Below are positions 31,496 to 33,984 of a stretch of 64,000 nt of DNA, piece by piece. This DNA comes from Mesoflavibacter sp. GTDB taxonomy: Bacteria > Pseudomonadota > Alphaproteobacteria > UBA8366 > Aestuariispiraceae. Under the pieces are notes generated by a model that ran no database searches, was not told where the DNA came from, and saw nothing but the letters and a program-made list of their open reading frames with translations. The stretch covers positions 1,550,001 through 1,614,000 of the forward strand of contig CP051228.1 of NCBI GenBank assembly GCA_017792345.1. Reading direction: 5' to 3'. A program made the translations under genes and the position numbers. Within the stretch, counting starts at the first letter, position 1, and every line of letters begins with the position of its first letter.

Positions 31496-33049
31496 TTACT
31501 TCCAGCGCGGTTCGAACGGAACCGGCCGGGGATAGCGCGACGCGACGTCGTGTTCGGTCAGGTCCATATGGCTGCGCGAATATTCCTCGGTCGCGTCCCG
31601 CTTGGGTTGCCAGTCCCAGCCATGATGCTTTCCGATCCGCAGCGCGCCGGACAGGACGCGTCGGCGCTTCTGGCTGTCCAGCACCCGGTCGTAGATCTCT
31701 GACGGGTCCCAGTGTTCCTTGGCCCAGCCCCGGAACATCGCCATGCGGTCCGCCTGATCCGGGTCGGCGGCGCGGTTGGTCACTTCGTTCGGATCACTGG
31801 CCAGATCGAACAATTGTTCCGGATCGCCGTGGCAGCATGTGTATTTCCAGCTTCCTTCCCGCAGCAGCAGCATCGGCTGGCCGGTGCCTTCGGCGGTGTA
31901 TTCCGCCACGGTCCGGTTCCGGTCGGTCTTGCCGTCGGCGAAATTCAGCAGGCTTTCGCCGTCCAGCGGGTCGACCGGTTCCGGAATCGCCGCGCCGGTC
32001 CCCTCGGCGGCCAGTTGCAGCAAGGTCGGGGTGACGTCGACCTGGCTGACCGGTTCGCGGACCACCATGCCCGCCGGCGTCCGGCCCGGCACATGCAGCA
32101 CCATCGGAATCCGGCAGGACCATTCGAAGAAGCTCATCTTGTACCAAAGGCCGCGCTCACCCAGCATGTCGCCGTGATCCGCGACCAGCAGGATCGCCGT
32201 GTCGTCGGCCAGGCCGCATTCGTCCAGCGCGTCGCGCAAGCGCCCCAGCCAATGATCGACATAGGAGACATTGGCCATATAGGCGCGGCGGGTCCGCTTG
32301 ATATCCTCCGGTCCGAAATCCACGGCGTCGATCGCGGAAACCTTCTCCAGGCGCAGGCTGTGCGGATCGTTGTCCGCGCGCGCCGGGCGCGGAACCGTCG
32401 GCAACGGGATATCCGTGTCTTCATACAGATTCCAGAAGCTGGGCCGCGCGGCATAGGGGTCGTGCGGATGGATGAAGCTTGCGACCAGACAGAAGGGCCG
32501 GCCGTCCTGCGTCCGCGCCGCGTCATAGATCGCCCGCAGACTCGCCGCACCGACCTCATCGTCATATTCAAGCTGATTGGTGATCGCCGCCGGGCCGGAC
32601 TGAATGACGGACGACATGTTGTGATACCACAGATCGATCCGCTCATCCGGTTGCCGCCAGTCCGGGACCCAGCCGAAATCCGCCGGATAGACGTCGGTCG
32701 TATGGCGTTCCTCGAAACCGTGCAATTGGTCCGCGCCGACGAAATGCATCTTTCCGGCCAGGCCGGTGCGATACCCCATCATGCGCAGGTAATGCGCGAA
32801 GGTCGGCACCGTCGACGGCAGATAGGCGGCATTATCCCAACCGCCGAAGCGCGAGATGTACTGACCCGTCATGAAGGCGTAGCGCCCCGGCGTGCACAGC
32901 GGGCTGTTCGTATAGGCGGCGTCATAACGCACGCCTTCCGACGCCAGCCGGTCCATATGCGGGGTCTTCACCGCGCCGTTGCCGTAACAGCCGACCATGA
33001 ACGGCGTCAGTTGATCGGCCATGACAATGAGAATGTTGCGTGCGCCCAT
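31496..33049 (-). CDS. betC: choline-sulfatase
   Basis: This 517-residue arylsulfatase-family enzyme hydrolyses choline-O-sulfate to choline and sulfate. The N terminus reads ILIVMADQLTPFMVGCYG, and the active-site Cys to be converted to formylglycine is in SPLCTPGRYAFMTGQ (CxPxR). The BetC-typical blocks GKMHFVGADQLHGFEERHTTD and 'HPHDPYAARPSFWNLYED' and the choline-sulfatase C-terminal region are present. The start at 33049 has a GGGGGAG ribosome site; an upstream extension of 44 codons is unsupported. It is divergent from the Fur-boxed small gene. No betA/betB are nearby. Confidence 0.92.
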   Translation of the reverse strand: MGARNILIVMADQLTPFMVGCYGNGAVKTPHMDRLASEGVRYDAAYTNSPLCTPGRYAFMTGQYISRFGGWDNAAYLPSTVPTFAHYLRMMGYRTGLAGKMHFVGADQLHGFEERHTTDVYPADFGWVPDWRQPDERIDLWYHNMSSVIQSGPAAITNQLEYDDEVGAASLRAIYDAARTQDGRPFCLVASFIHPHDPYAARPSFWNLYEDTDIPLPTVPRPARADNDPHSLRLEKVSAIDAVDFGPEDIKRTRRAYMANVSYVDHWLGRLRDALDECGLADDTAILLVADHGDMLGERGLWYKMSFFEWSCRIPMVLHVPGRTPAGMVVREPVSQVDVTPTLLQLAAEGTGAAIPEPVDPLDGESLLNFADGKTDRNRTVAEYTAEGTGQPMLLLREGSWKYTCCHGDPEQLFDLASDPNEVTNRAADPDQADRMAMFRGWAKEHWDPSEIYDRVLDSQKRRRVLSGALRIGKHHGWDWQPKRDATEEYSRSHMDLTEHDVASRYPRPVPFEPRWK

Positions 33050-33223
33050 GACGTGATCTCCCCCTTGGATCGATTGCGAACCTCCCTTGCCCTGTGACAG
33101 CGAATGCGCGCCGCCGCAAGCGGAAAACCGCCGTAAACCGCGAAATTCCGGGCCTTCATAAACGGTGTCGATGGCGCCCAATCACGCGATGGATGACAGG
33201 CCCGAAAATGCCTCAATTTTAAT

Positions 33224-33242
33224 ATTGAGAATGATTCGCAAT
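33224..33242. promoter_or_regulatory. Fur-like box
   Basis: The 19-base element is a dyad, ATTGnGAAT around a central G with ATTCnCAAT on the other side, broken at only two symmetric positions and the centre. Its inner part TGAGAAT-G-ATTCGCA fits the 7-1-7 Fur consensus (TGAtAAT-n-ATTaTCA). A second overlapping repeat CTCAAT...ATTGAG spans 33212-33229. It lies 57 bases upstream of the small Cys-rich gene and 175 bases upstream of the divergent betC start. Confidence 0.65.
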
Positions 33243-33298
33243 CGCGTTATTAACAATGGAACGGCGGCGAAGATCGGCCGTCCTGGAAGGAGACGACA

Positions 33299-33463
33299 AT
33301 GACACAGGCCCCTAGTTCCGGATGCTGCGCCGGATGCCCGAAATCGGATGCGCCGCGCGGTCCGACCTGCGGTTGGGCCGACACCCTGTTTCTGCTGCGT
33401 GGACGCCGCCTGTCGCGGCGCCATGGGGCGCACGGAACGATGGAGGGCGTGGCGGAATGCTGA
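33299..33463 (+). CDS. 54-residue Cys-rich small protein, probably iron-regulated
   Basis: An ATG at 33299 follows a strong GGAAGGAG ribosome site and opens a 54-codon frame that stops at 33461-33463. The protein starts MTQAPSSGCCAGCPKSD, with a CCxxC cluster at residues 9-13, a further Cys at 24 and a final Cys at 54, plus a basic RGRRLSRRHG segment. The stop overlaps the start of the next gene (ATGcTGA). The Fur-like box upstream suggests repression by iron. No family is recognised; a [2Fe-2S] or metal-binding role is possible but unproven. Confidence 0.55.
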   Translation: MTQAPSSGCCAGCPKSDAPRGPTCGWADTLFLLRGRRLSRRHGAHGTMEGVAEC

Positions 33464-33984
33464 TCCGAATGGCGGGACCCGGACCGATCGACGCGCTGTA
33501 CCACGCGGTCCGTTTCGACGACCTTAAGTTCGCCGAACGGCTTGCGGTCTGGACCCTACGCCTTTGGAATCAGTCGGTTACGCCGGACGGGTCTCACCGA
33601 AACATCCTGTCCATAGCCTATGAAAAGGCCGGCGTTCCCGACGCCATGCCCTCCATCGACGGCACTTTGTGGGCCTTCCGCATCGGCGGCCATCGCAAAC
33701 TGTCCGTCGGCTTCCCCTGCGCGGCGACCCTGTCCGAGGACGAACGCCGTATTCTGCATCTGCTGTCATGCTACCAAGCCGGGGCGGCACCTGCCGCACG
33801 GCCGGTGATGGATGCGCTGGCCCCTGCGGCAACGGCCCGTGCCGTTCAGGCGCCGCTATCCGTTTGGGCGGCCTGTCTGGAGCGGGCCGGCCTGGTCCTG
33901 CCCATGCGCGATTGGGATCTTCCGGAACTGCGCGGCCCCGCGCATTGCGGCACGGCCGGCTCGGAACATCCGGTCCTTCACTGA
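33457..33984 (+). CDS. hypothetical protein coupled to the Cys-rich small gene
   Basis: This 175-residue protein begins at ATG 33457 (MLIRMAGPGPIDALYHAVRFDDLKFAERLAVW), whose start codon overlaps the stop of the 54-residue gene by seven bases, implying translational coupling. It contains few Cys (PCAAT, LLSCYQAG, WAACLERAG, AHCGTAG) and no membrane segment. I do not recognise it. Its 3' end overlaps the convergent hybrid kinase by seven bases. With the upstream gene it likely forms a two-gene iron-responsive unit. Confidence 0.6.
   Translation: MLIRMAGPGPIDALYHAVRFDDLKFAERLAVWTLRLWNQSVTPDGSHRNILSIAYEKAGVPDAMPSIDGTLWAFRIGGHRKLSVGFPCAATLSEDERRILHLLSCYQAGAAPAARPVMDALAPAATARAVQAPLSVWAACLERAGLVLPMRDWDLPELRGPAHCGTAGSEHPVLH

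Follow-up and report, generated by a model that had tools for sequence, protein, structure and literature searches.

A Fur-type box precedes a two-gene unit encoding a genus-specific microprotein and a predicted helical protein of an apparently undescribed alphaproteobacterial family

Organisation of the unit and its operator

The locus considered here lies within a window of 64,000 nucleotides (the whole stretch of DNA that was analysed) and comprises two forward-strand genes, a short frame termed ORF1 and, overlapping its end, gene 2, with a Fur-type operator ahead of both. Its features, numbered from the first letter of the window, are as follows.

33225..33241, no strand assigned: Fur-type operator TTGAGAATGATTCGCAA, a 17-bp dyad overlapping a possible -35 hexamer, TTGAGA
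33248..33253, forward strand: possible -10 hexamer TATTAA, 17 nt past TTGAGA, a weak reading from the sequence
33287..33292, forward strand: ribosome-binding site AAGGAG of ORF1, read from the sequence, 6 nt before the ATG
33299..33463, forward strand: ORF1, a genus-specific microprotein of 54 aa (54 codons; ATG at 33299, stop at 33461-33463) with the conserved core L..LRGRRL.R
33457..33984, forward strand: gene 2 (ATG at 33457, stop ending at 33984), a predicted all-helical protein of 175 aa from an apparently undescribed family of Alphaproteobacteria
33976..33981, forward strand: C-terminal Leu-His codons of gene 2, which fit the Lon H-degron pattern

The stop of ORF1 and the start of gene 2 share the letters ATGCTGA, an overlap of 7 nt. 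Upstream lies a divergent choline-sulfatase-like gene and downstream, on the opposite strand, a hybrid histidine kinase gene overlapping the last bases of gene 2; since both flanking genes occupy the other strand, the two genes form a unit of their own. An earlier note on this DNA had described just this arrangement, a Fur-type dyad before a 54-codon gene with a good ribosome site whose stop overlaps the start of a 175-codon gene, and the description holds in each of these particulars; what the note missed was the family to which gene 2 belongs, the hydrophobic-His tail of its product and the parallel with hemP.

The arms of the dyad, TTGAGAAT and ATTCGCAA, agree at 7 of the 8 positions, and the box is an exact match to the pattern TTGMRAATNATTYKCAA, the sole one in the 4.9-Mb genome. 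Within the window it is also the only site with at most two mismatches, against 0.12 expected, the composition statistics being based on the window and the fetched loci. A search for further boxes of this form, as the note had proposed, shows that the genome holds 17 sites with at most two mismatches to the box pattern and only 1 for a reversed control pattern. Among the genes behind these other boxes, identified by eye from their sequence and not by a family search, are a TonB-dependent receptor, a FecR-linked TonB receptor, Dps, and a DUF2325 gene together with a paralogue of gene 2; some of the two-mismatch sites, which fall inside unrelated genes or adjoin genes with no known link to iron, are probably due to chance. 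From the iron-type genes preceded by boxes of the same form, and from the four FUR-family genes of this genome (PF01475 matches above the cut-off), we infer that the unit is under Fur control, a conclusion well supported by the sequence, with Fur as the presumed occupant of the dyad. The reading of the -35 and -10 hexamers is weak, because a stricter sigma-70 scan calls no promoter at the box and does not report TATTAA.

The choline-sulfatase-like gene (31496-33181, reverse strand), which is divergent from the box, is adjacent in the genus genome G001 as well and is not adjacent in G005, so that the box goes with gene 2. All six genus genomes retain the box-form dyad itself.

ORF1 and the slot before gene 2

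ORF1 stands at the same place in five of the six genus genomes, with 53-54 codons, a conserved GGAG before the start and the same 7-nt overlap, while the sixth, G001, is devoid of ORF1 and has its box starting 52 nt before gene 2. Conservation of frame and box in relatives was the test which the earlier note had set in advance for its proposal; both are kept in the five genomes, and the box and gene 2 in the sixth. Across the genus genomes the dN/dS values of ORF1 range from 0.13 to 0.43, its LRGRRL core is invariant, and purifying selection in its own frame is evident in three genome pairs (Fisher p = 0.023, 1.5e-4 and 6.6e-7). Since the substitutions between genomes favour synonymous sites, ORF1 is selected as a protein: the hidden microprotein gene suspected earlier is a real protein-coding gene under selection in the genus.

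Other suggestions of the note fare less well. A profile built from the five ORF1s found no homologue outside the genus among 59 genomes, so that tandem conservation of the two genes across Alphaproteobacteria is not supported; in these genomes ORF1 is confined to the genus, and gene 2 alone is widespread. The CCxxC motif is present as CCAGC at residues 9-13 but is private to the source genome, being replaced by ARAGC in the nearest relative (G003) and absent from G002, G004 and G005. Because not even the closest relative keeps the motif, an iron-sulfur or heme role resting on it was rejected. The final Cys is dictated by the letters which ORF1 has in common with gene 2. In one genus genome the ORF1 profile also picked up a second fragment, 27 residues long, at the end of a contig.

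One could suppose that ORF1 is only a leader, the translation of which controls gene 2 while its product is irrelevant, and the stop/start overlap, the confinement to one genus and the situation in G001, where gene 2 directly follows the box, would all accord with this; the selection acting on its amino-acid sequence (the dN/dS values and the invariant core) makes such a reading rather unlikely.

A different perspective is provided by a group of relatives, f24, which we take from gene order to be Rhodobacteraceae. In all seven f24 loci fetched, hemP is found immediately upstream of the gene 2-family member, and where the starts are clear the two genes overlap by 4 nt. ORF1 fills the slot held by hemP in these other operons and is not recognisably HemP. 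Size, place and stop/start overlap are alike in ORF1 and HemP/HmuP (PF10636), whereas a relation in sequence was not detected: Pfam returns no HemP match for ORF1, a profile comparison gives a probability of 0.2%, the alignment scores fall within those of shuffles (p 0.18-0.39), and the signature KLILTK (the C-terminal KLIL.K motif of HemP) is missing from ORF1, which ends MEGVAEC. That ORF1 is nevertheless a strongly diverged HemP, and the unit a hemP-gene 2 operon opening with a small regulator of heme and iron uptake genes, is very unlikely in our estimation, for although slot, size (53-56 aa) and a similar overlap recall the f24 hemP genes, and the string LLRGR is common to ORF1 and the HemP of G001, a true HemP is encoded elsewhere in the source genome and in four of the five other genus genomes, in addition to the sequence differences just given. 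HemP is accordingly ruled out on sequence and kept solely as a positional parallel.

The gene 2 family and its association with iron

Relatives of gene 2 were found by single-sequence search in 19 of 59 near genomes, by profile search in 82 of 289 genomes of the class Alphaproteobacteria and, across a sample of the phylum, in 51 of 397 genomes, all but one belonging to the same class; these sequence sets are samples, and genes in the fetched loci were called by a simple script. Gene 2 has no match in Pfam, NCBIfam or PHROGs, in keeping with the earlier view of the second gene as undescribed, and 47 family members run against Pfam yielded only single weak matches at chance level. In plasmid records the relatives are either unannotated or entered as 'hypothetical protein'. 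On the evidence of these searches, gene 2 founds an as yet undescribed, Alphaproteobacteria-wide family. Its invariant or near-invariant positions are R35, W37, D95, E96 and Q107, and the predicted structure consists of six helices with disordered ends. For two models of the fold (pLDDT 83 and 88), comparison with PDB and viral structures produced nothing of note (best VIA-align Z 3.0, 4.9 Å over 107 residues), a result which does not show the fold to be new.

The association with the operator extends to the family as a whole. A dyad with at most two mismatches lies within 250 bp upstream of 37 of 59 members in the first set, the distances being approximate because start codons were set by rule, compared with 7 of 225 other genes at the same loci, some of these seven being divergent neighbours which share the same box (p = 5e-24); among shuffles the same criterion is satisfied in 0.03%. 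The pattern was drawn up after some of the upstream regions had been sighted, and the controls used the identical pattern. After thinning at 60% identity the box is found in 34 of 61 members of the whole family set, and in a second set, richer in f24, the dyad precedes 6 of 32. Upstream of hemP in the f24 loci inspected there is no Fur-type dyad, from which it follows that the regulator differs in these loci. A seemingly conserved 'box' before the f24 members turned out to be HemP coding sequence and was discarded.

The neighbourhoods lead in the same direction. Among 39 loci, bacterioferritin lies within 2.5 kb of the family member in 6, imelysin in 4, FbpA in 4 and Dps in 3, and Bfd and DUF2325 genes also adjoin relatives of gene 2. 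An imelysin gene directly follows the family member in loci L135-L137, and the order in L078 is family member, Bfd, bacterioferritin; around many members no iron gene is recognised to a distance of about 5 kb. Taken together, the neighbours point to release of stored iron, heme uptake or iron allocation. Since hemP, imelysin, Bfd/bacterioferritin and DUF2325 genes share operons or clusters with relatives of gene 2, its most likely role would be in mobilising or allocating scarce iron. A family that more than a quarter of the sampled Alphaproteobacteria genomes possess is in this way tied to an iron operator and to neighbours in iron storage and heme uptake, and yet goes unnamed in the main family libraries.

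The closest published counterpart of the f24 arrangement that we consider is the operon of Rhodobacter sphaeroides in which, according to the passages dealing with it, hemP, irpA, bfd and bfr form one transcript, under IscR control and induced at low iron, with an IscR Iron-Rhodo-box as operator (PMC4618611, PMC3413700). The likeness resides in the f24 order of hemP, gene 2-family member and imelysin and in the control by iron starvation, and the difference in the IscR box and in the source unit, which has ORF1 in the place of hemP and is without imelysin; the same passages do not name a gene 2-family member (PMC4618611, PMC3413700). The Fur regulon of Caulobacter crescentus likewise includes iron-uptake, storage and hypothetical genes and lists hypothetical genes that are strongly derepressed, but the gene 2 family is not named there (PMC3751524).

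Several smaller observations concern these loci. In the source genome, beyond the window at G000:C1:4807088-4808892 (L063, L026), a DUF2325 gene with a Fur box is followed, with a 4-nt overlap, by a gene 2 paralogue ending in TIH, beside a PepSY-domain gene; the overlap of DUF2325 gene and paralogue is also present in G003. Divergent pairs of gene 2 paralogues, with Fur-type dyads in their common intergenic region, occur in L012, L013, L016, L017 and L019. Directly before hemP in three loci (L134:5569-5736, L135:4309-4461 and, in L136, just before 4641) there is a small ORF sharing the stretch L(E)W(L/M)(L/M/I)D(R/K), and this ORF may encode one more unannotated microprotein of the operon.

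The C-terminal tail and the proposed function

Gene 2 ends in PVLH, that is, x-hydrophobic-hydrophobic-His. Counting family members of at least 130 aa (n = 86), a terminal His is found in 62, each time preceded by L, V, I, M or F, compared with 2 of 359 other predicted proteins from the same loci, and thinning leaves it in 43 of 61. The residue before the hydrophobic-His pair is often T, A, R or S and not hydrophobic, the residues ahead of the tail do not align among members, and the tail belongs to the low-confidence, disordered part of the gene 2 model. The tail is dispensable in the family as a whole, since 24 of the 86 members do not end in His. A C-terminal x-[L/I]-[L/I/V]-H constitutes an autonomous Lon degron in which His is the preferred last residue and its change to Asp drastically cuts degradation (PMC11986505), and alphaproteobacterial LarA uses its final residues, which end V-H, to bind Lon and activate it, H89D disrupting the degron (PMC10665427). 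Tests of the Lon motif come from Yersinia and Caulobacter, and how strong a degron it makes depends on the residues preceding the His. The source genome contains a Lon gene. At the level of a motif match, then, the conserved tail suggests a Lon degron, which would make these short-lived proteins of iron starvation. Were this so, a dedicated protein would link iron starvation to regulated proteolysis.

The reading we favour, and regard as reasonably probable, is that of a Fur-repressed operon for a helical, probably Lon-controlled iron-starvation protein and a coupled microprotein. In the presence of iron, Fur would bind 33225-33241 and block the promoter; on iron scarcity, an mRNA of ORF1 and gene 2 would be made, and ribosomes having translated ORF1 could re-start at the overlapping ATG of gene 2, thereby coupling the two products. 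The product of gene 2 would be a soluble six-helix protein of an iron-regulon family, which Lon, presumably recognising the Leu-His tail, may clear either constantly or once iron returns. Transcriptional control by Fur combined with removal by Lon would thus restrict the protein to periods of iron starvation.

The tail could also be construed as a docking site and gene 2 as an iron-starvation counterpart of LarA and HspQ, made on relief from Fur and activating Lon or redirecting it to iron-using or damaged proteins. LarA (Caulobacter, PMC10665427) and HspQ (Yersinia) have a C-terminal Lon-binding signal, of which the tail of gene 2 is a candidate counterpart, and are stress-induced, as gene 2 presumably is; the last residues of LarA are essential for Lon activation, and in the gene 2 family a conserved folded domain accompanies the conserved tail. 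The comparison is made at the level of the motif; LarA is an 89-aa, heat-shock controlled protein and gene 2 a 175-aa, helical, Fur-boxed one, and about 2.3% of Caulobacter proteins bear variants of the H-degron motif (PMC11986505), so that the motif by itself makes no regulator; we consider such a function unlikely. The more encompassing proposal of an undescribed alphaproteobacterial family, made in iron starvation, which docks on Lon by its Leu-His end and redirects proteolysis, with lineage-specific microproteins or HemP in the preceding slot, we would advance only as a speculative one and rate somewhat lower still.

Similarly doubtful is a function in storage or delivery, with iron, heme or some other metal bound in many members by a loop of paired Cys (RCPxC.xVSxDE) together with the C-terminal His. 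The middle loop holds a C-x2-C in 47 of the 86 members and 58 have two Cys close together, the neighbours are iron genes, and an Fe-S cluster governs the Lon sensitivity of Caulobacter FixT (PMC7078487). Against this, the source gene 2 has a single loop Cys (GFPCAATL), the pair is not kept by the genus members, and no further conserved ligands accompany the C-terminal His in its disordered tail.

A last observation concerns the architecture of the family: at L080:4836-5975 (L050) an open frame of 379 aa, ending in RTLH, contains two matches to the gene 2 profile and is apparently a fused tandem copy.
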